Below are positions 19,494-58,182 of a stretch of DNA of 64,000 bases, piece by piece. The notes under the pieces are model-generated. The model was not told the DNA's origin and did no database searches. It saw only the letters and a program-made list of their open reading frames with translations. The stretch is from a virus: positions 1 through 64,000 of the IMG/VR virus record IMGVR_UViG_3300025009_000088. One strand, written 5' to 3'. Position 1 is the stretch's first letter; each line of letters opens with the position of its first letter. A program made the translations under genes and the position numbers.

Positions 19494-20315
19494 TTAGAAG
19501 TATGTCCAACTATCGTTGAAGAAAAGGCTTCCTTTTCGCTGTCGCAAGATCATCTTGTTTTGCTCAAACGGTGCTTTGATTTTCTGGCTTATAAATGTCT
19601 CGCCTACGTGATGAGTTGCGGTTGCTTCTGTGTCAATAAACACCTTGTGTCCTTGCTGTCGGATTTCAAGATTTAGGTCTACATCTTCGAAGTATCCCAT
19701 TCCATATCCTTCAAAAAAACCGCCCGCTTTGTTGAAAACACTTCTTCGGACAATAAAGCACGCACCAGTAACCGAAATTGTCTCACGAGATATGTTGCAT
19801 TTTGGATTGTCTGGGTTCCAACCAACCAACGGATGAACAACTTCTCCGTGAATATCAATGGCGTGTCCAATGTGCTGAACTTTTCCAGCAGGTCGTCCTG
19901 GGTCTGTGCTGTCTATTGGAAAGATAAGTTTCAGACCGCAGATACCGATTGTGGGATCGTCCATCCTTCGTATGAGTTTCTCAACCGCTCCTTTGTGAAG
20001 AATAACGTCATCGCTTACGAATAAGACAAGCGGGGAATTTCCTGCTCGGATAACTCGATTTGCGCCGTAAGGATAACCCTTGTTCTGCGGACTTTTATCT
20101 ACTCGAATATCCCGACAACCAAGAATATTGTCATACGCAACCTTTGTTTCTTCTGGAACTCCGTTTCTGAAAGCGTACAGCTTGCTTGGAATTTCCGCAG
20201 TTTCGGTACATATTGCTTGAACGCACTTCTCAAATATCTTTGGGTCTATCGCCCCCGCCGTTAGTATCGCTACGTCCAGAAGCGTGTTTTGTGCCTTCTC
20301 GTGCTTTTTTCTCAT
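19494..20315 (-). CDS. Glycosyltransferase family 2
   Basis: This 273-residue GT-A enzyme should transfer a sugar from a nucleotide donor. The donor-binding acidic motif is LFVSDDVIL (about 94-102). The acceptor-side motif is GYFEDVDLNLEIRQQG, with the ED pair typical of family 2. TGACFIVRRSVFNKAGGF between them is also typical. It is the last gene of the glycan cassette, about 115 bases before the DUF1566 gene. Substrates cannot be read from sequence. Confidence 0.8.
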   Translation of the reverse strand: MRKKHEKAQNTLLDVAILTAGAIDPKIFEKCVQAICTETAEIPSKLYAFRNGVPEETKVAYDNILGCRDIRVDKSPQNKGYPYGANRVIRAGNSPLVLFVSDDVILHKGAVEKLIRRMDDPTIGICGLKLIFPIDSTDPGRPAGKVQHIGHAIDIHGEVVHPLVGWNPDNPKCNISRETISVTGACFIVRRSVFNKAGGFFEGYGMGYFEDVDLNLEIRQQGHKVFIDTEATATHHVGETFISQKIKAPFEQNKMILRQRKGSLFFNDSWTYF

Positions 20316-20454
20316 GTTTGTTCCTATTCTTTTTGTTTAGTTTTTGTATGCAGGATGAGCATAGGAAATCTCCAAAGATGTCAAATGCGCCAAACTCGCC
20401 GCAGACATCGCAAACCTCATCCTCAAGATATGGGAAGTCCCTGTTCATCGACAA
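20230..20454 (-). CDS. Small zinc-finger protein overlapping glycosyltransferases
   Basis: This 74-residue protein has a CDVCG, then CSSC pair, a likely zinc knuckle, followed by a lysine-rich basic tail. It overlaps both neighbouring glycosyltransferase genes in another frame. The cysteine spacing argues for a real gene, but the extensive overlap keeps confidence moderate. Confidence 0.5.
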   Translation of the reverse strand: MSMNRDFPYLEDEVCDVCGEFGAFDIFGDFLCSSCIQKLNKKNRNKHEKKAREGTKHASGRSDTNGGGDRPKDI

Positions 20455-21628
20455 CCTCTCCTATGGCTTTTGCAAGTTGCTCGGCTGGAACATTCCAATT
20501 CATCTGCTCAACAAACTCCCTCGCTCTTGCAATTACACCGTGTAAATTCTCTTTGTTTTCGCTGATATAGGATAGTTCCTGCACGGCAACAAACTTGTTT
20601 ATAAAGTACCTGTTCTGGTTTCCGAACGGGTCAATCATTTGGTATTCTGGTTCAACAATAAACCCTCGCCCATCTTTGAGCAGTTCGCGGATTGCGCCAA
20701 CTTTGTTAGCGACTATCGGAATACCAACCGCCATCGCCTCCATTACCGGGATGCCCAAGCCTTCCCCCTTTGAGCAAAGCAGAAATGCGTCTGACGCAAC
20801 GTACAGCATATATAACTCCATAAACGGAAGTCCAGACTTGAAAACTCGCAGATCGGATGAAATTCCAAGGCGCATGGCAAGATCGTACAGTTTCCAGCCA
20901 ACCATGCTATCTTCTCTTGTTACAAGAACGTGCTTTACCTTTACCTTATGAACTCTTTTCAATTCTGAGATTATTTCCAATCCAGCAGAGAGGTTCTTTC
21001 TTTCCTGGTTGTCTGCAACCGTTAGGACAACGAAATCATCCTCTTCGAAACCAAGCGTTTTGCGAATGGATAAATACTCCTCGTTTGTGCGAAGTCTCCA
21101 CGAGTTAGTGTCTATTCCAACTTTTAGATGCTCTGCGTTTACTCCCGCCTTCTTAGCCTCTTCTGTTCCAAATTCAGATATGAAGAAAACCTTGTTCATT
21201 TGACCAAGTAAGTTAGCCCAAGTCATGCAAAGCGGTTCGCTTTCAAGCGGAGTGATACAAATATATTTTATTCCCAACTTCTTTGCGACTGGAAAAAACA
21301 TCTCCTGGAAAAAGTGAATATCGAGCGCAACCACAACAACATCTGGTTTCCACATATATTTTAGGTTGTTTAGAACACCCGCCGCGTCTCTTGGCGAACC
21401 GCACGGAACGAGAGAGAATGTACCGCCATGTTCCTGCCCTGTATATCCTATTCCAAGAGCCTTTACATCGTGTCCCATTTCCTGTAGTTTTTGACACAAT
21501 GCCATGCCAATTCCAGAATAGCCACTGCGCGCAGTAGCCACTCCGTTTTGTTTCTCGCCTAGAGAGAAGTCTGATATATAAACAATTTTATACTTATCCA
21601 TTGAGTACCCGTTTATCCCATTCTGCAA
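20423..21628 (-). CDS. Glycosyltransferase family 4 (GT-B)
   Basis: This 401-residue GT-B enzyme has an N-terminal Rossmann half (YSGIGMALCQKLQEMGHDVK) and a C-terminal donor-binding half with KGEGLGIPVMEAMAVGIPIV. The latter contains the conserved E-x7-E of family 4 retaining enzymes. It overlaps the next enzyme's gene by 35 bases, as expected within one operon. A perfect palindrome copy lies at 20533-20545, encoding L-H-G-V. Confidence 0.82.
   Translation of the reverse strand: MQNGINGYSMDKYKIVYISDFSLGEKQNGVATARSGYSGIGMALCQKLQEMGHDVKALGIGYTGQEHGGTFSLVPCGSPRDAAGVLNNLKYMWKPDVVVVALDIHFFQEMFFPVAKKLGIKYICITPLESEPLCMTWANLLGQMNKVFFISEFGTEEAKKAGVNAEHLKVGIDTNSWRLRTNEEYLSIRKTLGFEEDDFVVLTVADNQERKNLSAGLEIISELKRVHKVKVKHVLVTREDSMVGWKLYDLAMRLGISSDLRVFKSGLPFMELYMLYVASDAFLLCSKGEGLGIPVMEAMAVGIPIVANKVGAIRELLKDGRGFIVEPEYQMIDPFGNQNRYFINKFVAVQELSYISENKENLHGVIARAREFVEQMNWNVPAEQLAKAIGEVVDEQGLPIS
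20533..20545. promoter_or_regulatory. Dispersed palindrome copy, perfect
   Basis: TTACACCGTGTAA within a glycosyltransferase gene, read TTA-CAC-GGT-GTA on the coding strand. Confidence 0.7.
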
Positions 21629-22622
21629 GAATTGTGTTTAGTGAAAATCTCTCTCTTGCCAGCTTGCTAAGATTTGCTTGTATGTTTGGAAGTTCTGGAT
21701 TTTGCAAATACGAAATAGTTTTCTCGATAAATATTCCTTGCGTTCTTATTGGATGTCCTTCGATAACCACTCCCATATTAGTTGTTTTCATAGCGCCCGC
21801 GTCCGACGTGATTGGCAATACGCCAGCCACCTGCGACTCTGCTACTGCAATGGCGAATAGCTCGTCGTAGGTTCCGGGGTAGAAGTGTATCTGCGCTTTT
21901 TGCTGTTCCTGTATAAGTCGCTCTCTCGGAACCGCCCCAAGAAACTGAACATTCTTTGAGTTGATAAACCTTGCAACATACCCAGAATTTCCAGGAGAGC
22001 CGTTTCCCCATAAACGATAATCAGATGTAATCACCAGAGAAATATCTGGAATTTTACTTTGCAGTATCGGATACATTCTCGCAACATGCTCCAAGCCCCT
22101 GTCTGGAACAGAAGTAAAGATAAGACGATTTGGAACTTTTTCCTGCGGACTATTATACTCCCAATCTCTTACGGGAAGGTCAATATGAATTGACTTGTCA
22201 ATATTGTATCTTTGCTTGAAATACTCCGAGTGAAACGGAGATATTGTCACTACTGCGTCTGCGATTGTTGAAAAATGTGCGAAGTCTCCGGTTGTGTACT
22301 GATCGCAGGAAAAGAAAATGATTTTGCCTTTCGCTTTATACGCTTTGGCGGTTGGCTCCCTGAAAACAATAAGAATGTCTCTCGCCTCGTCCTTGTAGAA
22401 ATGTTCTACCGGAAGTTGTTCAAACGTCTCGCTAGCGCGCCTCGGATTGTTATATAGACGAATATCGTGTCCCTGATTGAACCAGCCCTCGCACAGCGTA
22501 AGTAGCGCAAGTTCAGAGCCGCCCACGCCCACGCGCCCATTCTTTCCATAAATATCGCTTGGAACAACGCCGTCAGTGGAACCCGCGCCACAAAGAATGT
22601 CAATTTTCATAAGACCGCCCAC
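21594..22622 (-). CDS. Glycosyltransferase, GT-B group 1
   Basis: This 342-residue GT-B protein shows GGSELALLTLCEGWFNQGHD in the N-terminal half and YPGTYDELFAIAVAESQVAG in the C-terminal half. The latter has an E-x7-E donor motif. It overlaps the preceding family 2 gene by 16 bases. The first listed ATG has in-frame alternatives (MKIDILCG, 5 codons on) that fit the family start better. Confidence 0.78.
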   Translation of the reverse strand: MGGLMKIDILCGAGSTDGVVPSDIYGKNGRVGVGGSELALLTLCEGWFNQGHDIRLYNNPRRASETFEQLPVEHFYKDEARDILIVFREPTAKAYKAKGKIIFFSCDQYTTGDFAHFSTIADAVVTISPFHSEYFKQRYNIDKSIHIDLPVRDWEYNSPQEKVPNRLIFTSVPDRGLEHVARMYPILQSKIPDISLVITSDYRLWGNGSPGNSGYVARFINSKNVQFLGAVPRERLIQEQQKAQIHFYPGTYDELFAIAVAESQVAGVLPITSDAGAMKTTNMGVVIEGHPIRTQGIFIEKTISYLQNPELPNIQANLSKLARERFSLNTILAEWDKRVLNG

Positions 22623-23347
22623 TCTGGCAAAGGCTCTATTGAACCGCCAAACTCAAGAGGATGTAGCATTGTCGGGATTTGCCCAGACTCTCTATAGAAC
22701 TTTAGCTTTTTTTCAACCATCTCGTCAGTTTGCCAAGGGCTGTGCAACAACGCGTAGGGCGGATATAAATTCAGCCTCTCGTTTTCTTGCGGAGAAAACG
22801 CTAATTCTTGATGACTTTCCTCCCTGCTTACGCGGTCAGAGCGAAAGCGAAGTTGCGTTCCATTTCTCCACGCCCAAATTGATGGTTCAAAGTTTCCGGC
22901 TTTCAATGGTTGCGCTAATGCCGGAAAGTGACCCTCGTTCTTCCAAAGAAACAGGCGGGTTACGAAGATATAGTTTTTTTGTGTTTCCGTCATTATTTTT
23001 CTTGCGTCTTCTTTTACGGTTTTGTTTGGAAAACAATCGCAATCATCGAAAATTATCCAATCCGCGCTCTCTCCGATAAACGCCCAATCTATAAGAAAAT
23101 TGCAATGAGAGCCGTGTGGATTTCTTGTAATTCCATTTTGCATCTCTACGAAAACATCGTAGTTTCTTACTTCGACGTTTTTGAAACTATTCGCTATTTG
23201 TATTGTGTCATCTCGACTCCCGCCGTCGGCAACAAGGATTTTGTCTGCCCATGTATAGCTTTCGCAGAACCTTGCAATGTTTATTTCTTCGTCTTTCGTC
23301 CTAACCGCTACGCAAATTTTCATTTTCTTTTCTCCAGCAAAAACCAA
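22607..23347 (-). CDS. Glycosyltransferase family 2
   Basis: This 246-residue GT-A enzyme begins its domain with MKICVAVRTKDEEINIARF, the usual family 2 start, about eight codons inside the reading frame. It then has KILVADGGSRDDT and the acidic IIFDDCDCFP motif for metal-nucleotide binding. It is similar to the short LPS core-type glycosyltransferases (WaaE/KdtX-like). Confidence 0.78.
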   Translation of the reverse strand: MVFAGEKKMKICVAVRTKDEEINIARFCESYTWADKILVADGGSRDDTIQIANSFKNVEVRNYDVFVEMQNGITRNPHGSHCNFLIDWAFIGESADWIIFDDCDCFPNKTVKEDARKIMTETQKNYIFVTRLFLWKNEGHFPALAQPLKAGNFEPSIWAWRNGTQLRFRSDRVSREESHQELAFSPQENERLNLYPPYALLHSPWQTDEMVEKKLKFYRESGQIPTMLHPLEFGGSIEPLPEWAVL

Positions 23348-23931
23348 TATTCTATTTCTTCGTCCCTTGCGTCTTTTTCAACCCCCATTCTGTATATTTT
23401 TGTTTTTTGATAAACAACATCAAATCCAGCAACGTCAAACAGGTTTTCCCACTGTTCTGAATCCAAAACAAAATAATGATTTCTGCCTTTGCGCCCCCAA
23501 TAATCAGGACAAGGAAGCACAAGCGCAACGTATTTCTTTGAAACCCTGTACCATTCCGTCAATGTAAGAAGCGGCATTGGACTATGCTCAAGAGAATGTC
23601 TTGCATAGAGCATATCATAGGTTTCGTTTTCAAACGGAAGAAAAGTGAAATCGCAATTCATCACGTTTTTGCCATTTTTCAATGCAATTTCGTAATCTTC
23701 CCCAAGACAAATTCCAACATAATCCAGCCCGTAGTTTGTAAAGAAGCCCTGACAAAACGCTTGACCACAACCAAGATCAAGAACGGATTGAACATTGGTT
23801 GAATTTCTTGTAAATTCAAGTATGCTTTCCGCCGCCCAAATAGTGTGGTTTTCGTCCGGGGGTTGCGGGTAAATATCTTTGATAAGTTTTTGAAGATATT
23901 TGTCTATGTTAGAGTAGTTTCTTCCGTTCAC
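23320..23931 (-). CDS. Class I SAM-dependent methyltransferase
   Basis: This 203-residue protein has the methyltransferase Rossmann motif I, VLDLGCGQAFCQGFF (about 40-54), and a motif near DMLYARHSLEHSPMPL typical of the Methyltransf_11 group. In a glycan cassette it would most likely O- or N-methylate a sugar, but the acceptor is unknown. Its start overlaps the intein-bearing dehydrase gene by ATGA. Confidence 0.78.
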   Translation of the reverse strand: MNGRNYSNIDKYLQKLIKDIYPQPPDENHTIWAAESILEFTRNSTNVQSVLDLGCGQAFCQGFFTNYGLDYVGICLGEDYEIALKNGKNVMNCDFTFLPFENETYDMLYARHSLEHSPMPLLTLTEWYRVSKKYVALVLPCPDYWGRKGRNHYFVLDSEQWENLFDVAGFDVVYQKTKIYRMGVEKDARDEEIEYWFLLEKRK

Positions 23932-26369
23932 GAATGACTCTCCATGAATTCACCAATCTTTTCTACGACATACTCCTGCATTGGTCTGGTTATGATTGGC
24001 GCAACTCCGATCCACATACCAGAATTCATCACGAAATCGCTTTTGTGCAGTGTTCCACTTACTCTATATTTTACATCTTTATAGGCTGGATGTCTTGTTA
24101 GGTTTCCTGCAAACAACATCCTTGTTCCAATCTTGTTAGTTTCCAAGAACGAGACAAACTCGTTTCTTGAAAACCCCGCGTTTTCCTTTATGGATATGGT
24201 AAAACCAAACCAAGACGGGCTACTGTGCGACGATCTCTCTGGAAGGATAAGGTAATCTTTCCACTTGTTCAATTCGTCCCTGTAAAACTGCCAATTATTT
24301 TGTCTTGTTTCAACAAATGCTGAAAGACGCTTTATTTGTGAAAGTCCGACAGCGGCTTGCAGGTCGGTTGCCTTGAGATTATATCCAATTTCAGAGTAAA
24401 TATACTTGTGGTCAAAGCCTTGTGGCAAGTCTCCAAGTTTCCAGTCAAACCTTTTTCCGCACGTATTGTCTTTTCCTGGCGCGCACCAACAGTTATGAAC
24501 AGCAATTCCGTTAACGTGATAGCTGTGTTCTTCTGATGACGTTTCTAAGTTGTAAACATCAATGTCGCTTACCTCAGAGACAACAATAGATCGGATTGGA
24601 TAATGAGCATAATTATTTGAAATCCAAGAAAATGCGTGATTAGTTCTTGCCTTATACGGTTCCCCAAGAAAAACCCCAAGTTTTTCTGCGTTCTTCCCAT
24701 AAATAGATAGAGAGTGTAGATCGTTTTTTGCAACTACGTTCTTTCCGTTTATAACGGAAGGTTTGTGTACGCCTATGCCTCTTTTATACGAAGAGGTCAG
24801 AATTCCAACTCGGAGCAACATTTCTCTTACTTGATTTATCAATATGGTGCTTGTTGACGAAACATTAAATCCCTGGAAAGATGAACTTCCGTCTCCGCGC
24901 CAGTATCCTTTTATAAGTTCTAAACACAGATCGTCGCTCCATCTAAAAATAAATTCAGGAAGGCTTTTATTTGCCGCGCCAGTTCCAAACATTTGTTTGA
25001 AAAACTCGTAACCCTTTCTTGTTTTGAAACAAACAGATACGCCGTTTGACTTTCCGTGTGTTCTTACGTTTCCCGCAATGCCGAAACACTTACGCATGAG
25101 TTCTTTTACATCTTCAATATATTCAATCTCGTCTTTATGAAACGCAAAATCAACTCGATACGAATAGTATTTGTTTTCTATATATCCGCTTTTTCCCTTT
25201 AATCCTTTTGCTAAACTGCCTTCTGCAAGCCAATATCCAATTAGTCTAGCAAGTTCTTTGCTCGGAACTATCTCCTCTTCTTTTGTCTGATAAAGGGTTT
25301 TATATGAAAAATGTATCGGGCGCGTACTGTTATATCTCCCGTATTGTGGAATTGCCTCTAGGAAAATGTCTTTTTTGCATTGTAAGTCCTTTGCCAGAAC
25401 CCATAAATATTCTCCATTCCTGCAAACAAAAAACGGATGTTCTTCTGTGACGCTAATTTTTGGTCGCATTGACGACTTGATTGTGTATAGTTTTCCAGAA
25501 TATTTTCTAACGGATGTTTGTCTAACATCCGTATATTTTCCGGTGTGCGTTCTCACGTTGTCTTGGGCTACGCGTATCTTTTCTATAGGAACAACGCCCC
25601 TATCTGTGTCTACAAGTGTTCCTGCTGGAAAACAAGACCTGCCCCAATCGCGGAATGAGCGTATGATACTGTTCAATAAAGAACTGTCTGTTGTAACTGC
25701 GCCTCCCTCGCCCATCGAAATGTGGTGCGCAGGATAGAAACTAAACGTGGATATGTCCGCCCAAGCCGGAACTGGTTTTGAGTAATGTTCAGCCCCAAGC
25801 GCATCACAGCAATCCGCAACAACCCACAATCCGTTCTGGTCTGCGAGTTCTCTTATTTCCTTTGCTCGATATGGATTTCCAAGTGTATGCGCCATGAATA
25901 TTGCTTTTGTTTTTGGCGTGATTGCTTCGCTGACAGAGTGCGGAAGAGCGTTGTATCCTGGAATATTCGTGTCTATGAAAACAGGAACAAGTCCGTTCTG
26001 GATAATTGGATTTACGGTTGTTGGAAAACCGCACGCAACGGTAATTACTTCGTCGCCCTTTTTGATTGCCCTGTCTTTTAGGCGATTTGACATTAGAGTG
26101 GAGATCGCAAGCAGGTTGGCGGATGAGCCAGAATTGCATAAAATAGCATACCGCTGTAAAGTTGCGTTTGCTAAAAACTTCTCAAATTCGTAGGCGTGTG
26201 CGCCATCAACATACCACCTGCCTAGCGCAACTTCAACAATGGAAGCAACGTCATCGGCGTTCCAGGACGCTCCAGAAGTACGAACATAGGTCTCCCCCGG
26301 AACGAACTTCTCTGGGGCTTTCTTATTGATAAAGTCTCTTACTACGTCTAAAATATATTCGCTATTCAT
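23928..26369 (-). CDS. rfbH: RfbH-type CDP-sugar 3-dehydrase interrupted by an intein
   Basis: The 813-residue precursor would splice to a 432-residue DegT/AHBA-fold enzyme close in size to RfbH (E1). That enzyme removes the C3 hydroxyl of CDP-4-keto-6-deoxyglucose using PMP and a [2Fe-2S] centre. FYPAHHISMGEGG has His (about 215) where aminotransferases have Lys, as in RfbH. In the spliced protein the cysteines fall as C-x57-C-x-C-x7-C, starting from the second Cys of ADCCDALG and ending in CWCAPGKDNTC. This is the iron-sulfur pattern I recall for E1. The intein (residues 246-626) sits immediately before the second of these cysteines. The stop overlaps the methyltransferase start. Confidence 0.88.
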   Translation of the reverse strand: MNSEYILDVVRDFINKKAPEKFVPGETYVRTSGASWNADDVASIVEVALGRWYVDGAHAYEFEKFLANATLQRYAILCNSGSSANLLAISTLMSNRLKDRAIKKGDEVITVACGFPTTVNPIIQNGLVPVFIDTNIPGYNALPHSVSEAITPKTKAIFMAHTLGNPYRAKEIRELADQNGLWVVADCCDALGAEHYSKPVPAWADISTFSFYPAHHISMGEGGAVTTDSSLLNSIIRSFRDWGRSCFPAGTLVDTDRGVVPIEKIRVAQDNVRTHTGKYTDVRQTSVRKYSGKLYTIKSSMRPKISVTEEHPFFVCRNGEYLWVLAKDLQCKKDIFLEAIPQYGRYNSTRPIHFSYKTLYQTKEEEIVPSKELARLIGYWLAEGSLAKGLKGKSGYIENKYYSYRVDFAFHKDEIEYIEDVKELMRKCFGIAGNVRTHGKSNGVSVCFKTRKGYEFFKQMFGTGAANKSLPEFIFRWSDDLCLELIKGYWRGDGSSSFQGFNVSSTSTILINQVREMLLRVGILTSSYKRGIGVHKPSVINGKNVVAKNDLHSLSIYGKNAEKLGVFLGEPYKARTNHAFSWISNNYAHYPIRSIVVSEVSDIDVYNLETSSEEHSYHVNGIAVHNCWCAPGKDNTCGKRFDWKLGDLPQGFDHKYIYSEIGYNLKATDLQAAVGLSQIKRLSAFVETRQNNWQFYRDELNKWKDYLILPERSSHSSPSWFGFTISIKENAGFSRNEFVSFLETNKIGTRMLFAGNLTRHPAYKDVKYRVSGTLHKSDFVMNSGMWIGVAPIITRPMQEYVVEKIGEFMESHS
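24492..25634 (-). mobile_element. LAGLIDADG intein within rfbH
   Basis: This 381-residue intein starts with CFPAGTLVDT (Cys1) and has TEEHPFFV (block B). LIGYWLAEGSL and LIKGYWRGDGS are the two LAGLIDADG endonuclease motifs. It ends DVYNLE, then SYHVNGIAVHN, with the penultimate His and final Asn. The next extein residue is Cys. All residues needed for splicing and both endonuclease acidic residues are present, so it looks active. The insertion point lies between DWGRS and CWCAPG. Confidence 0.9.
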
Positions 26370-27207
26370 TGTGCTTGTAATAATCCACGAGAGATGCGAT
26401 GGTCTGCTTTATATCGTATTGCTGAGAATATCCCAACTCTTTTATCTTGGAAATGTCAAGAAACATTATTGGCGTTTGAACGATTTTATGGAACTCTGGA
26501 ACTTCGATAACGTTTATCTTTCCGGTATATCCGGCGCAATGCCAGGCGTGCCTTACTAATTCCTCAATGTTCAAGCCCTGTCCGTTTGCGACATTATATA
26601 TCTGATTTGTTTTTCCGTTTTCAACAACAAGGCGGATTGCAGAGACAACATCTCGCACGTCTATGAAGTCTCTAACCGAACCGTTCTTGTAAAGGTTTAT
26701 TTCTCTTCCTTGCGCAAGTTCCCTGACCATGTATTGCAACGCATTCTTCTTTGCGCTTATCTTTTTATCGCCAATTCCAATTACGTTTCCAAGACGCAGA
26801 ATGCGATACTTCATGCCGAAAGTTTGGCAGTAGGACGCCAAGAGTTGCTCGGCGCATAATTTAGTCGCGGAATAAAAGCCAGTTGGAAAGCACGGAGAAT
26901 CCTCTGTTGCTGGAAGCGCAGTCTTGCCTAGGACAAACCATGAGGAAATTATGTTATAGACTGTTTTGCTTCCGTGAAACTGTCTTGCTTTTTCAAGTTT
27001 TTCAATCAGTAAAGACAGGTTCGTGTCTATGTCAAGATACGGATTTGTCTTTACGTTGTAGTTGTCAACCGTGCTGACAAAATCAAGAATGTCTGGATGT
27101 TCCGAGATAATAAAGTCTCTTTGAACGACCCCTATTTCGTCTGCGTATTTAGCGGCATAGTTTCCTCCGATAAATCCGCCCGCACCGAAAACAGATATTT
27201 TATTCAT
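26362..27207 (-). CDS. NAD-dependent sugar epimerase/reductase (extended SDR)
   Basis: This 281-residue extended SDR has the nucleotide-binding GAGGFIGG and the catalytic Y-x3-K in FYSATKLCAEQ. RDFIDVRDVV is typical of sugar-nucleotide epimerases and reductases. Next to RfbG- and RfbH-like genes it is a candidate for the last step, such as the 4-ketoreductase making abequose or paratose (RfbJ/RfbS-like). The sequence alone does not fix this. The ATG chosen overlaps the preceding stop as ATGA. Confidence 0.75.
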   Translation of the reverse strand: MNKISVFGAGGFIGGNYAAKYADEIGVVQRDFIISEHPDILDFVSTVDNYNVKTNPYLDIDTNLSLLIEKLEKARQFHGSKTVYNIISSWFVLGKTALPATEDSPCFPTGFYSATKLCAEQLLASYCQTFGMKYRILRLGNVIGIGDKKISAKKNALQYMVRELAQGREINLYKNGSVRDFIDVRDVVSAIRLVVENGKTNQIYNVANGQGLNIEELVRHAWHCAGYTGKINVIEVPEFHKIVQTPIMFLDISKIKELGYSQQYDIKQTIASLVDYYKHNE

Positions 27208-28133
27208 TTTGGTTCCATGTACCAAGGAATAGTGAAATCAAGTCCGGTGTCAATATCAATCGCAGGACTCCAATCAATCAGTTCTTTTGCCAAGTCGTTC
27301 TCAATGTGCTGGTGCGGAATTTCGCCTTTCCACTGTTTTTCGTAGGTTGGCGCAAGATCAACTCTGTTCATTTTTTCAAGTATTGTATCAACAATTTCCG
27401 CAACCGAATGATTGAAGCCGCACAGGTTTAGTTCGGTCAAATTCTGCTTGTACGGAAGTTCTGCCGCTTTCAGGTATCCTTCAACAATATCACTGACGTA
27501 AATGTAGTCTCTTGTGTTGCTTCCGTCTCCGCGTATGACAGGTGGCTCGCCTCGCACAGCGTTGCGAATTGTTCTTGGAATAATCCTGTCAAAATGTGTA
27601 TCTCCTGAACCATAGACGTTTGCATTTCTGACAACAACAGTCGGAATACCAAGAAACAAGGAATACATTTTTGCAAGTGTATCGCCAGCCAGCTTCGAGG
27701 CGTTGTACGGATGCTCATAGCCCTGCGGAATGGTGTCTTTTGTAATCGGACTGACGTTGCCAAAAATCTTGTCCGTACTGATAAACACGAGAGATTTGAG
27801 AGTTGGCAGGTCTTTGCAGGCGCACAGGAGGTTTGCCGATCCTTTGACATTTGTATCAATTGTTTCGCAAACGTCTTTCATGGCAACCGAAACAAGTGGT
27901 TGTGCGGCAAGGTGGAAAATGATTTCTGGCGCAAAACGCCTTAGTTCTATGGTGAACTCTTCGTCAACATTGGTTATGTCGCCAACGAATTTACCGATGT
28001 TTGGCGGTGCTTTCCTGACATGCTCAAGAAGCATAATATTCGCATTGAGAAAGCGAAGTATTCTCGTCAGGTGCGACCCCACGAATCCTGTGCCGCCGGA
28101 AATAAAGACGCGCTTACCGCTAAAGTTCATCAC
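27204..28133 (-). CDS. rfbG: CDP-glucose 4,6-dehydratase-like enzyme
   Basis: This 309-residue extended SDR has SGGTGFVGSHL at the start, HLAAQPLVSVAM, FISTDKIFGN with the catalytic T-D-K, and YNASKLAGD with Y-x3-K. The STDK(F/Y)GN signature is characteristic of RfbG-type CDP-glucose dehydratases, and the two partner genes downstream fit the same pathway. GDP-mannose or other dehydratases remain possible. It is about 50 residues shorter than classical RfbG. Translation is coupled to both neighbours by 4-base overlaps. Confidence 0.75.
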   Translation of the reverse strand: MMNFSGKRVFISGGTGFVGSHLTRILRFLNANIMLLEHVRKAPPNIGKFVGDITNVDEEFTIELRRFAPEIIFHLAAQPLVSVAMKDVCETIDTNVKGSANLLCACKDLPTLKSLVFISTDKIFGNVSPITKDTIPQGYEHPYNASKLAGDTLAKMYSLFLGIPTVVVRNANVYGSGDTHFDRIIPRTIRNAVRGEPPVIRGDGSNTRDYIYVSDIVEGYLKAAELPYKQNLTELNLCGFNHSVAEIVDTILEKMNRVDLAPTYEKQWKGEIPHQHIENDLAKELIDWSPAIDIDTGLDFTIPWYMEPK

Positions 28134-28525
28134 TCCACCGTGCCGTCCGCGTGACGGGAAACCCCGACGTTATTTTTTTCCGTCAACATTCTTAAGCAGG
28201 CTACGACTTTTCCGTCACTCATCGGACTTGCCAACTTGGAATATGCGGCGTAACCAACAACTCCTGCGATACTCCCGCAACTGCACCATAAGCCCCATCC
28301 TTTATGAGATTTTGGGGCGGCATAAACAAAGTGGGCAGATTGCGGTGCGCACTTGACCAAGCCGTATCCATCAACCCATAGCGCGTCTGTACGATATACC
28401 ACAGTTCCGTCTGCCAGCGTTGCTTTTTGCGCATCTCCTAAAGAGCGCACAATCTTAGGGGCATGAGAAACTTCATTTATCCCCTTGCTTTTTAGAACTT
28501 GGTTGTTCCATTTATCAATGTTCAT
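28130..28525 (-). CDS. Small hypothetical protein in glycan cassette
   Basis: This 131-residue protein is not recognised. It contains GWGLWCSCGSIAGVVGYAAY, with a Cys pair and a small-residue-rich segment, and ends with an acidic tail. The cysteines and the KGWGLWCSCG context suggest a small metal-binding or structural fold. Both ends overlap glycan genes by 4 bases, so it is co-translated with them and may assist the pathway. Confidence 0.55.
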   Translation of the reverse strand: MNIDKWNNQVLKSKGINEVSHAPKIVRSLGDAQKATLADGTVVYRTDALWVDGYGLVKCAPQSAHFVYAAPKSHKGWGLWCSCGSIAGVVGYAAYSKLASPMSDGKVVACLRMLTEKNNVGVSRHADGTVE

Positions 28526-29493
28526 GCCAATCCTACCTCATCAAAAATCTGTTGAATACGCAACTCATACGTGTGTCGCTCATGGACAATGTTGTGCGCA
28601 GAAGTCGCAACAGCCTTAGCCCATTCTGGATTTGCAAGCGCAAACTCAACTTTATCAACCGCTTCTTCGACAGTATCAAATCCGAGATATTGTTTTCCTT
28701 CCACAAGCCCAAGTTCTTCAAGGTGCGGCAAGCGATTAATAACTGGAACTTGGCGCATTGCCATAATTTCCATCGTTCTGGCGTTTATGTCCATGAGACT
28801 AGACCAATTTAGTCCGATTGTCGCGCGGTTATTCTCTTGGCGGTATTCGTCATAAATAAGACCAAGGTCATATAGAACCTTGCGACCTCTTGAGCGCAGA
28901 GCGTTGACAAGTCTATCTCTCTGTTCGTAGTGCAGACCAATCAGGCTTGCGTCGTAGTCTTTTTCTACGTTGCTCATTGCGTAATGGTGGTCTGGAGAAC
29001 AGCAGTACGGAAGGAAGATGTCTCCTGGTTTTAGGTAGTATCTTTGCATACCGAAAAACCATCCGGCTTTCGGACGAACATCCTCGTACCAGTTTCCTAA
29101 AACGTGCGGGTCGGTTGCGATTACTGCATACGGGCAATCTGGTTGGTCTGAGAAGTGAAAGCCAGCGTCGCAGGCTATTACAAGGTCTGGCGTCCAAGGA
29201 AGATTATGTTTTACTGCGTGCCAGGATGGTCTCGTCATTGTTGGCGGAAGAGGAAGGTCAACTGGCTTCACGTACTTCATTGGTATTCTCATTCCACCGC
29301 CCCAAGGAATTGAATCTCCTGTGTATGCCCCAAGAGTAAACAATTCAACGTCTGGACGCTTTTCGAGCGCGTGGCGGAAATAACTTAATATTGCGAAGGG
29401 GTAAAAGATTCCAGAAAGCACCAGCCTAATCTTCCTGGTTTCCAAACTCTTGATTTCAACTTGCGGTAATGTGTCAATCATTATTCTGTCCAT
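28522..29493 (-). CDS. CgeB-like GT-B glycosyltransferase
   Basis: This 323-residue protein has a C-terminal half like the CgeB/Glyco_trans_1_2 family. It includes IGLNWSSLMDINARTMEIMA followed by QVPVINRLPHLEELGL and a helical end. The N-terminal half (LVLSGIFYPFAILSYFRHAL) fits the acceptor domain. A second ATG four codons inside forms TAATG with the preceding stop and could be the true start. Confidence 0.7.
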   Translation of the reverse strand: MDRIMIDTLPQVEIKSLETRKIRLVLSGIFYPFAILSYFRHALEKRPDVELFTLGAYTGDSIPWGGGMRIPMKYVKPVDLPLPPTMTRPSWHAVKHNLPWTPDLVIACDAGFHFSDQPDCPYAVIATDPHVLGNWYEDVRPKAGWFFGMQRYYLKPGDIFLPYCCSPDHHYAMSNVEKDYDASLIGLHYEQRDRLVNALRSRGRKVLYDLGLIYDEYRQENNRATIGLNWSSLMDINARTMEIMAMRQVPVINRLPHLEELGLVEGKQYLGFDTVEEAVDKVEFALANPEWAKAVATSAHNIVHERHTYELRIQQIFDEVGLA

Positions 29494-30167
29494 TTCTTTC
29501 GAAAATATTCTCTGTTTCTTTTGGTGACTGCCTCTCGCTCTGGATTGTATCCAAGAGTTCCTCCGCCTAAGTGAACTATATTCGGAGTGTTTAGCGGAGA
29601 GAGCGCAAAGCCAAGTTCTTTTGCTTTTGTAGACAGGTCAACGTCTTCATAGTCATTCGGTGCATACGCAGGGTCAAAATATCCAAGTTCTTGCCACCTA
29701 TCTGCGGTTGTCGCAAGGAAATAGCCTTCCGCGTATCCGAACACCCTACCATTGAATGTGTTCCAGCCAGTATCGTGCAAAAGAAGTTTATGTCCTACAA
29801 GAGTTTTCGGAGACGCAGATAGAATTTCTTCTGTCTGCCCGATAAACTTTCCGTGAATTCGCACATCATTTGAGATTAGGAATACGATCCTGTCTTTTTC
29901 GTGTTTGGTACATGCGACAAGCCTAAGTCCAATATTCGAGGCAATCGTAAAGCCTACGTTTTCTATCAATTTTTCCACTTCTATAGGAAGAAGGCGATCA
30001 TCTTTCCACGCATCCAGAGAAGCAATTGTTTCGGCATCTGTTGAGCGGTCGTCCACAATAATAATTCGGTCAATTGATTTCTGTTCGTGCAAAAGTAAAT
30101 CAAGAAGTAATCGACCAGTTAGCTCATAGTGATTGTGGCACGGAATTACAATCGTTGTTTTATACAT
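29481..30167 (-). CDS. Glycosyltransferase family 2
   Basis: This 228-residue GT-A enzyme opens with TTIVIPCHNHYELTGRLLLD and IIIVDDRSTDAET. It has a nucleotide-binding VFLISNDVRIHG and the family's acidic motif in APNDYEDVDLSTKAKELGF. This is one of three family 2 enzymes in the cassette. It overlaps genes on both sides. Confidence 0.8.
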   Translation of the reverse strand: MYKTTIVIPCHNHYELTGRLLLDLLLHEQKSIDRIIIVDDRSTDAETIASLDAWKDDRLLPIEVEKLIENVGFTIASNIGLRLVACTKHEKDRIVFLISNDVRIHGKFIGQTEEILSASPKTLVGHKLLLHDTGWNTFNGRVFGYAEGYFLATTADRWQELGYFDPAYAPNDYEDVDLSTKAKELGFALSPLNTPNIVHLGGGTLGYNPEREAVTKRNREYFRKKWTE

Positions 30168-30972
30168 GGAACTCTTCTTTTTTCATAAGTTCAATAGATT
30201 CTGATATGCTGTGAATTGGCAAGCCAACAGACTTCGCAAGCGAAACGCCCATTGAGCAGTTGCGCGGACGAGGAGAATATCCTGCTATCTCTGACGTTCT
30301 TCGAGCAACAAATCTATCATTTCTAAAATACGCCTTGGATACTGCGCACATGAAATCGTAGAACGACATCGAATTTTCACTTCCGTAATTCGTCACTTTT
30401 GGCATATTATTGACATGATTCGCAAATTCCATGATTGCCTGTGCGACAAAATCAAGGTGGCAGTAGTTTCTCTTTATGAATGTTGGAACTTTGACTTCTT
30501 TTCCTTGCCGCAGATTGTCAATATAACCCCATATATCCGAGTTGATTTCGTAAGAGAAGCCTCTGGCAAGCCTGATTGTCTTTCCGCCATATAAATTGAC
30601 AACCGCTTCTGCGCCAAACTTCGTGAAGCCGTAATTGTTTATCGGCTTCGGTTCGTCTTTCTCGCTGTACTTTCCGAAAATCCTTTTGCCGCCATAGACC
30701 TGATCGGATGACAGCAAGACAACTTTGTTTTCTGCTAGTTTACAGAGATTGGCAGTTCCCCATACGTTTACCGCAAGTGCTTTTTCATAGTCATCTTCGC
30801 AAGCGTCAATTGAAGAAATTCCTGCGGCGTGAATAACCACGTCTGGATTTACACGGTGTAATTCCCTTTCTACTGCGTTCTTGTCAAGAATGTCGCAGTT
30901 CAGCGGAATAGCACCTAGGGCGGCTAAGCGCCGCCCTATTTTTCCTTTACTTCCAGTTGTTGCGATTTTCAT
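30160..30972 (-). CDS. RmlD-like sugar-nucleotide reductase (SDR)
   Basis: This 270-residue SDR resembles dTDP-4-dehydrorhamnose reductase: TTGSKGKIGRRL at the start, VVIHAAGISSIDACE, LLSSDQVYGG and the Y-x3-K in NYGFTKFGAEAVV. It is the first gene of the glycan cassette in transcription order. No RmlA, RmlB or RmlC gene is seen, so the substrate may come from the host or be different. A perfect palindrome copy is embedded at L-H-R-V. Confidence 0.75.
   Translation of the reverse strand: MKIATTGSKGKIGRRLAALGAIPLNCDILDKNAVERELHRVNPDVVIHAAGISSIDACEDDYEKALAVNVWGTANLCKLAENKVVLLSSDQVYGGKRIFGKYSEKDEPKPINNYGFTKFGAEAVVNLYGGKTIRLARGFSYEINSDIWGYIDNLRQGKEVKVPTFIKRNYCHLDFVAQAIMEFANHVNNMPKVTNYGSENSMSFYDFMCAVSKAYFRNDRFVARRTSEIAGYSPRPRNCSMGVSLAKSVGLPIHSISESIELMKKEEFHV
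30849..30861. promoter_or_regulatory. Dispersed palindrome copy, perfect
   Basis: TTACACGGTGTAA within the RmlD-like gene, read TTA-CAC-CGT-GTA on the coding strand. Confidence 0.7.
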
Positions 30973-53893: not shown

Positions 53894-54775
53894 ATGACTA
53901 ACGATCACGAAAACGAATTTTCCAGACCGGACGAATCAAAAGAAATTGTACCAATCGTAGACGAAAGAACTGGCGAGATAATTCCCAGGAACGCACCTCA
54001 ACCAATTGCGAAAGCGATGTACACCTTTGATGTTTCGGCAATTGGAACCCTCAAGTTAGACGAAAACGCAGAAAAGGTCTTGGATGAGCCGCTCGAAGAT
54101 GCGGACGTTTTAATCCGTCCAGACGGTTTGGTTTACCTGCCCTGGACGTACTACGCAAAGAAACTCAATCGTGCGTTTGGTCGCCTCCAGTGGGGCATTA
54201 TTCCAAGCGGAAACCCTGTCAGTAAGGATGTTGGTTACGATAACATTCTTGTCGCCTGGAATTTTTGGCTGGTTGTGAAAGGTATTCCAATTGCGTTTTC
54301 GGTTGGAGAGACAACGTACCGCACCACCAATAAGTCCATGTCCTATACAGACGCTTGCGAAGGCGCGAAATCGTCTGCGCTCGCTCGTAACTGCAAGCAA
54401 CTTGGTATCTCTTTGGAATTGTGGGACAAGGAATGGATCGAAGGTTGGAAGAAGAACAACGCAGAAACATACAAAAAGGATGACAGAGTCCTTTGGCGCA
54501 AGAAAGACCTTAACAAACCGAAAGCCGAGAAGCCCGTCAAGCAAGATGCTGAGCAGGAAACCTCGGAACACATCGAGGAAGGAACTGTCGTTGAGACTGC
54601 GCAGGAATTGTCTGATGGTTATACCGCCAAGCAAATCCTCGCAAAGATTGATGTCGTCAAGGAAATTTCTACTCTCTCCAAGAAGCCAGTCGTTGAAGTC
54701 TGCGGCTTTGTTGGCAAGTTGGAGAAGGGGAAAAAATTCACTGTTGGCGAAATCGTCAAGCAACTAGGAGAATAA
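53894..54775 (+). CDS. Rad52/Mgm101-like single-strand annealing protein
   Basis: This 293-residue protein fits phage annealing proteins of the Mgm101/Rad52 type, which pair complementary strands during recombination. The core spans about 70-190: PDGLVYLPWTYYAKKLNRAF, FSVGETTYRTTNKSMSYTDA and EGAKSSALARNCKQLGISLE. A linker follows, then an acidic-basic tail that may bind SSB. The SSB gene follows directly. Expression is preceded by a structured leader with the ribosome site in a hairpin loop. Confidence 0.82.
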   Translation: MTNDHENEFSRPDESKEIVPIVDERTGEIIPRNAPQPIAKAMYTFDVSAIGTLKLDENAEKVLDEPLEDADVLIRPDGLVYLPWTYYAKKLNRAFGRLQWGIIPSGNPVSKDVGYDNILVAWNFWLVVKGIPIAFSVGETTYRTTNKSMSYTDACEGAKSSALARNCKQLGISLELWDKEWIEGWKKNNAETYKKDDRVLWRKKDLNKPKAEKPVKQDAEQETSEHIEEGTVVETAQELSDGYTAKQILAKIDVVKEISTLSKKPVVEVCGFVGKLEKGKKFTVGEIVKQLGE

Positions 54776-57473: not shown

Positions 57474-57501
57474 TTGACTCCTGCCAATTTTGCGGTATCA
57501 T
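57474..57501 (+). promoter_or_regulatory. Promoter of the HNH gene
   Basis: TTGACT (57474-57479), 16 bases, TATCAT (57496-57501). It starts a separate transcript for the homing-type endonuclease. Confidence 0.6.
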
Positions 57502-57507
57502 ATAGGC

Positions 57508-57624
57508 GTGGCAGTTTTCAGGAGATTTTTATTCCAAAGCAAAAACCAGCCAATCTGTTGCGCTCCTGAACTGTCACAAGTCTTGGAAAGCAGGTTGGCT
57601 GGTCTTTGTTTCAGGAGTCGAGCT
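57508..57624 (+). promoter_or_regulatory. Switch-like leader of the HNH gene
   Basis: TTTCAGGAG occurs twice: at 57516-57524 and at 57609-57617, where it contains the ribosome site. Between them CTCCTGAA (57563-57570) can pair with either copy, so the two foldings exclude each other and would hide or free the ribosome site. Further stems are ACCAGCCAA/TTGGCTGGT (57545-57553 with 57595-57603) and TTCCAA/TTGGAA (57532-57537 with 57583-57588). Confidence 0.55.
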
Positions 57625-58182
57625 ATGATAGACGAAACGAATACACAAGAAGTAGGTCGCATTCCGTCTCCATACGAAATAACGCAGAATCAAACATCAA
57701 ACGGCGGATGGAATAAGAACGCATTGCGCGAATGGGGCGTAGAGTGGCCTCCGCCAGAAGGATGGAAGAAAGAATTAGAAAATGCTTATCGACTAGGACA
57801 AACAATCGGATTTATTCTTGAGTGTATCGGATGCAGGAAGGCGAAGTATTTCGTAGACCATGAAGATTATCCGGTATGCAACGACTGCAAAAAATTTGAA
57901 CAGGATAGATATGATAGAGAACACAATGAAATCAGGCTAATTCGACAAAAAAGAGTTAGATGCAAGTGCAAAAAGGAAAGCATACCAAGCGATTTTAGAT
58001 GGACTGTTTTCGAGCGAGACAATTTTACATGTCAAAAATGCGGAAGCAGACGAAACCTTTCAGTGGATCACATATTCCCAGAATCTATGGGAGGAAAATT
58101 AACAATGGAAAACGCACAAACTCTTTGTAAGCATTGTAATAGCAAAAAAGGAGCAAAACTTGAAAATAACCCATCTTCTTGA
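57625..58182 (+). CDS. HNH endonuclease (homing type)
   Basis: This 185-residue protein has a first zinc site (CIGCRKAKYF and CNDCKKF) and a C-terminal HNH nuclease. That nuclease shows FTCQKCGSRRNLSVDHIFPE, then LTMENAQTLCKHCNSKKG. The ATG follows AGGAG by seven bases. It has its own promoter and a regulated-looking leader, as homing endonucleases often do. It overlaps the next gene. Confidence 0.85.
   Translation: MIDETNTQEVGRIPSPYEITQNQTSNGGWNKNALREWGVEWPPPEGWKKELENAYRLGQTIGFILECIGCRKAKYFVDHEDYPVCNDCKKFEQDRYDREHNEIRLIRQKRVRCKCKKESIPSDFRWTVFERDNFTCQKCGSRRNLSVDHIFPESMGGKLTMENAQTLCKHCNSKKGAKLENNPSS

Follow-up and report, generated by a model that had tools for sequence, protein, structure and literature searches.

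It is highly probable that a canonical class 1 LAGLIDADG intein lies directly before the codon of a predicted iron-sulfur ligand, C246, in a phage gene for an RfbH/E1-type sugar 3-dehydrase, and that it must splice out for a functional enzyme to form. The anatomy of the element, its homology and the empty homologous sites in other genomes are documented here; the enzyme would be expected to be active after splicing, and this explanation requires no redox or regulatory role of the intein.

The precursor gene and its phage setting

The window, meaning the whole stretch of 64,000 nucleotides analysed, belongs to a virus record that encodes a terminase, a portal, a major head protein, an endolysin, an exonuclease, a replication initiator and a DnaB-like helicase. 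The terminase, portal and head genes bear out the earlier note's view that the DNA is that of a phage; it is a tailed one, distant from isolated phages, whose TerL proteins share no more than 33% identity with its own over partial length. Two further genes of the window encode an Mgm101-like (Rad52-type) recombination protein (53894-54775, Pfam 5.2e-34) and an HNH endonuclease, the latter adjoining the replication initiator gene (57490-58182).

The precursor gene (Table 1) is part of a glycan block (19494-30972) that lies among structural genes and contains glycosyltransferases of families 1 and 2, three SDRs (one of them RmlD-like) and a methyltransferase, as well as a 131-aa protein with no Pfam or NCBIfam match (28130-28525). 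Judged by its best profile match, the upstream SDR could make the RfbH substrate. Neither a sugar nucleotidyltransferase nor a Fer2-type reductase was found in the virus record, so that enzyme and pathway would depend on host partners.

Table 1. Features of the intein-containing RfbH/E1-type gene and of a neighbouring gene, in window coordinates.
Feature	Position	Strand	Remarks
Precursor gene, RfbH/E1-type CDP-4-keto-6-deoxyglucose 3-dehydrase with in-frame intein	23928..26369	-	813 aa; single open frame
N-extein	25635..26369	-	245 aa, C-terminus ...SFRDWGRS; aligns with 3bcx chain residues 20-250
C-extein	23928..24491	-	187 aa, N-terminus CWCAPGKDNTC; aligns with 3bcx chain from residue 251
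Intein	24492..25634	-	381 aa, CFPAGT...AVHN; Cys is the next residue after the intein
Block A, Cys1 nucleophile (CFPAGTLVDTDRG)	25596..25634	-	TIGR01445 above cut-off; C1 invariant, 24 relatives
Block B, T63-x-x-H66 (TEEH)	25437..25448	-	H66 invariant, T63 nearly invariant, 24 relatives
First LAGLIDADG motif (LIGYWLAEGS)	25215..25244	-	Alignment; model helix 126-138
Second LAGLIDADG motif (LIKGYWRGDG)	24888..24917	-	PF14528 1.5e-12; D248/G249 invariant; I-DmoI-like fold
Blocks F and G (VYNLETSSEEHSYHVNGIAVHN), ending H380 N381	24492..24557	-	TIGR01443 above cut-off; H380, N381 invariant
C188 (E1 C193), predicted [2Fe-2S] ligand, N-extein	25806..25808	-	Cys in 55/55 cellular RfbH
H215 (E1 H220), His replacing PLP lysine	25725..25727	-	His in 55/55 cellular RfbH
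Cys+1, spliced C246 (E1 C251), extein nucleophile and predicted [2Fe-2S] ligand	24489..24491	-	Cys in 55/55 cellular RfbH
Cys+3, spliced C248 (E1 C253), predicted [2Fe-2S] ligand	24483..24485	-	Invariant, 55 cellular RfbH
Spliced C256 (E1 C261), predicted [2Fe-2S] ligand	24459..24461	-	Invariant, 55 cellular RfbH
Upstream SDR	27204..28133	-	Best NCBIfam CDP-glucose 4,6-dehydratase, 139 bits, below cut-off 278

The 813 codons run without stop or frameshift, and the intein boundaries proposed earlier from the sequence are exact, corresponding to codons 246-626 of the frame. The flanks of the precursor score 600.9 bits against the RfbH model NF011936, above its equivalog cut-off of 423, and their best PDB relatives are 3bcx and 3bb8, solved E1 enzymes of Yersinia pseudotuberculosis; score and alignment uphold the earlier assignment of the host protein as RfbH-type. 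In the HMMER alignment to 3bcx, the match stops at chain residue 250/251 and picks up again with no residue lost or gained. Joining the exteins in a script yields a protein of 432 aa with cysteines at positions 78, 113, 187, 188, 246, 248 and 256, whose predicted activity is the RfbH/E1-type C3 deoxygenation of CDP-4-keto-6-deoxyglucose.

A full-length class 1 intein

The element has Cys at position 1, the block B Thr and His, a C-terminal His-Asn followed by Cys+1 and a Hint fold, as class 1 inteins do, and the two motifs and I-DmoI-like fold of a LAGLIDADG homing endonuclease, in agreement with the earlier note, which had reported the splicing residues and both motifs as kept. Profile matches to intein_Nterm and intein_Cterm are above their cut-offs, those to the Hint/intein domains slightly below theirs, and LAGLIDADG_3 matches at 1.5e-12. 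In an alignment of 24 members built from viral relatives, C1, H66, the aspartate of the GDG, H380 and N381 are invariant and T63 is nearly so. An AlphaFold2 model of the intein computed from this alignment (pLDDT 88.3, pTM 0.85) matches in VIA-align the archaeal DNA polymerase intein PI-PkoII (2cw7; Z 32.2 over 336 residues), which shares the overall fold at 25% identity; VMA inteins were also matched, as were isolated Hint domains (Z ~18) and, over residues 122-330, I-DmoI chains (Z ~17). The element is a full-length class 1 intein with predicted splicing and endonuclease activity, and it is probably homing-competent. It is the only intein found within the 68,713 bases of the record, and its GC3 (0.328, versus 0.445 and 0.436 for the exteins and 0.363-0.601 for 11 other phage genes) is consistent with the later arrival of an acquired element.

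The commonest residue at block F position 4 is Asp (PMC4031507). Here it is Asn, and block F carries a one-residue insertion (ETSSEEH), departures from the commonest form that could be taken as signs of an inactive or decaying intein and hence of a dead rfbH. Such decay is extremely unlikely, as the frame is uninterrupted, all nucleophile and block B/G residues are intact, the model is of high confidence and neither a ligand cysteine nor the PMP histidine is missing from the exteins; Asn at this position is, moreover, the rule among the related inteins of the 24-member alignment.

An intact intein would follow the standard class 1 steps (PMC4031507), in which Cys1 would attack the Ser245-Cys1 bond to give a thioester, the N-extein would be transferred to Cys+1, and Asn381 cyclisation and an S-to-N shift would leave the exteins joined. 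As for its persistence, the intein would be held at a conserved site, since any inexact excision there would ruin the enzyme, and its endonuclease would copy the element into empty rfbH alleles.

The residue at -1 is Ser in the phage precursor as opposed to Asp in 50 of the 55 cellular RfbH. Asp at -1 is reported to raise N-terminal cleavage more than four-fold (PMC8891592), and since it promotes this side reaction, Ser would favour clean splicing. An adaptation of the extein to its intein is only suggested by this, because Ser also occurs at -1 in two empty relatives, one cellular and one viral.

The predicted cluster site and its occupancy

We take the cluster ligands of E1 to be C193, C251, C253 and C261, arranged as C-x57-C-x-C-x7-C. 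In the joined phage protein the computed spacing is C188-x57-C246-x-C248-x7-C256, with 188-246 as the sole C-x57-C pair, and these cysteines align residue for residue with those of the Yersinia enzyme (C192/C193 and H220/H221 in 3bcx chain numbering; C251, C253 and C261 by alignment). The pattern that the earlier note had given for the spliced protein therefore falls in the E1 columns, and the same alignment establishes that the intein directly precedes the equivalent of C251, a ligand position that doubles as the +1 nucleophile. C188, H215, C246, C248 and C256 are invariant among the 55 cellular RfbH loci from two phyla, and the neighbouring C187 is Cys in 26 of them; this conservation supports the assumed positions. 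For E1 and SpnQ, a [2Fe-2S] cluster bound by four cysteines close to PMP is described, with His instead of the PLP lysine (PMC8987622), again in line with cluster binding by C188, C246, C248 and C256 as predicted here. One viral RfbH relative (L009:6001-7191) has Ala at the position of C188 and keeps C187 and the other three cysteines; its ligand may be shifted by one residue.

Ligation of the exteins would restore RDWGRS-CWCAPGKDNTC and leave the four cysteines free to bind the [2Fe-2S] cluster. Splicing would free the thiol of Cys246 for the cluster, and enzyme activity therefore very probably depends on it; the suggestion in the earlier note that cluster assembly requires splicing is likely to be right. 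For cluster binding as such the need for splicing is less certain, because the precursor already has all four cysteines; the two ends of Hint domains lie near each other, which bears on assembly in the unspliced precursor.

The same site is empty in 97 viral and 55 cellular RfbH relatives, and the junction is uninterrupted in the 86 viral relatives that have His215 and both CxC cysteines. Of 796 genomes searched, 58 were above the RfbH cut-off. No other occupied RfbH was found among the 97 viral loci or in these 58 genomes, and scanning 84,980 species genomes and 2.9 million viral contigs by pattern yielded none either; this agrees with the earlier expectation that the site is rarely occupied and leaves one known copy of the RfbH intein. 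The junction pattern HN|CxCxxGxDNTC would recognise 34 of the 55 known RfbH junctions, and the negative scan is therefore good but incomplete, as an occupied site could be missed. The pattern had zero matches in viral contigs and two chance matches in contigs of species genomes, namely a 38-aa frame antisense to another gene (L021) and a 109-aa frame with no relation to RfbH (L022). The block A pattern DWGRxCxxGT gave 11 viral matches and 0 inteins, one of them being an empty phage RfbH with CWCGTG (L028). No close relative was found in viral contigs for the complete precursor, nor was one found for the intein alone. In the open literature no paper combined intein and RfbH, and matches for inteins in DegT proteins were, as far as checked, other words or unrelated. 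From these searches, the host protein and the insertion site look new. Empty-site RfbH genes on viral contigs (L003-L008, L011 and others) gave at least 80 good matches, so 3-dehydrases are a frequent phage cargo.

Related inteins and the question of redox control

Inteins of the same family (~23-29% identity) are present in viral ribonucleotide reductases (RNR), C5-methyltransferases and cysteine peptidases (L035, L119, L131, L133, L136, L144, L122), the hosts of L131, L136 and L144, as well as that of L146, being assigned by motif or visible sequence only. As in RfbH, they are inserted directly before a Cys at a conserved functional site, in RNR at GELVS|CFL and GEYVS|CF, in C5-methyltransferases at FGSP|CQ and similar junctions, in a papain-like protease at NTNS|CVWQ and in a probable cell-wall peptidase at GQPW|CAMF; the host proteins differ, and the Cys is a catalytic thiol, whereas in RfbH it is a predicted metal ligand. 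Two related inteins reside in viral glycosyltransferases (L117 and L135, the latter likewise assigned by motif or visible sequence only). The nearest intein found (L116, 32% identity) is also viral and has the same length, blocks and LAGLIDADG type, but occupies another protein at another site, before CPTWHPAY. Its host (L116:2254-4836) is a viral fusion of uracil-DNA glycosylase and DNA polymerase A-type 3'-5' exonuclease domains; some families of the uracil-DNA glycosylase superfamily carry an iron-sulfur cluster. A common recurring phage protein (SMG-CKVPYD...CSIC; L120, L123, L124, L142) is invaded at two nearby cysteines, and in L120 and L123 these related proteins contain another intein-like stretch that has an HNC junction of its own.

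Mycobacteriophage inteins, too, adjoin conserved motifs and active sites (PMC5050341). The earlier note had regarded an intein at a cluster ligand of a phage sugar enzyme as unusual. The rarity of host and site stands; as these sequences indicate, insertion before a functional Cys is ordinary for related inteins, which precede catalytic cysteines and in two cases interrupt glycosyltransferases, and this largely removes the claim of strangeness.

Radical SAM enzymes hold their cluster through a CX3CX2C ligand motif. Because of this spacing, residues -3 and +1 at the intein of Pyrococcus abyssi MoaA, like RfbH an oxygen-sensitive iron-sulfur enzyme, would correspond to the final two ligands of the cluster. 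By this analogy the MoaA intein probably also directly precedes a cluster ligand and would be the nearest precedent. MoaA differs in being an archaeal radical SAM [4Fe-4S] protein with a junction-adjacent N-extein Cys as redox trap, for which a disulfide between N-extein Cys-3 and Cys1 (PMC3922620) and a redox interpretation (PMC10663303) have been described. The RfbH precursor is without such a Cys, its N-extein ending in FRDWGRS with the nearest N-extein cysteine, C188, 58 residues before Cys1. Viral radical SAM motifs interrupted by an intein ahead of the third Cys were also sought, and the three matches were all due to chance. The mycobacterial SufB intein resembles the RfbH intein in standing directly before Cys+1 of an iron-sulfur protein (PMC8891592), but SufB is a cluster assembly scaffold and not a sugar enzyme, and N-extein histidines assist its first splicing steps.

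These precedents raise the question of a conditional switch, in which oxidation or metal binding at Cys1, Cys+1 or Cys+3 would hold back splicing. The shared Cys would then make the intein a maturation checkpoint that senses redox state or iron/zinc, and the enzyme would mature only under reducing or iron-replete conditions in the cell. The +1 Cys is indeed both nucleophile and predicted ligand, with a further ligand at +3, and apart from the MoaA disulfide and its redox interpretation there is a Cys1/Cys+1 disulfide in the Pab PolII intein (PMC3922620) and zinc-inhibited splicing in DnaB (PMC7360933). We nevertheless regard such a switch as very unlikely, given the lack of a Cys at -3 and near the N junction (RDWGRS), and the sequence itself gives no sign of a Cys1/Cys+1 disulfide or of a metal block. 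The chemistry invoked is generic to all class 1 inteins with Cys+1, relatives in DNA methyltransferases and glycosyltransferases, at sites without a redox role, share the architecture, and no second occupied RfbH is known that would speak for retention of the arrangement. If true, a 3,6-dideoxysugar step of the phage would start only once the host is reducing or iron-replete.

Taken as a canonical intein that splices out of the enzyme, the element represents biology that is expected from known inteins, and no earlier record of one in an RfbH/E1-type sugar 3-dehydrase appears to exist. It offers a bench model in which splicing nucleophile and predicted cluster ligand are one Cys, so that a single protein would show both splicing and cluster assembly through its size and colour. 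Together with the viral relatives gathered here, the element supports a general rule, namely that this intein family settles before a functional Cys, whatever the host protein.
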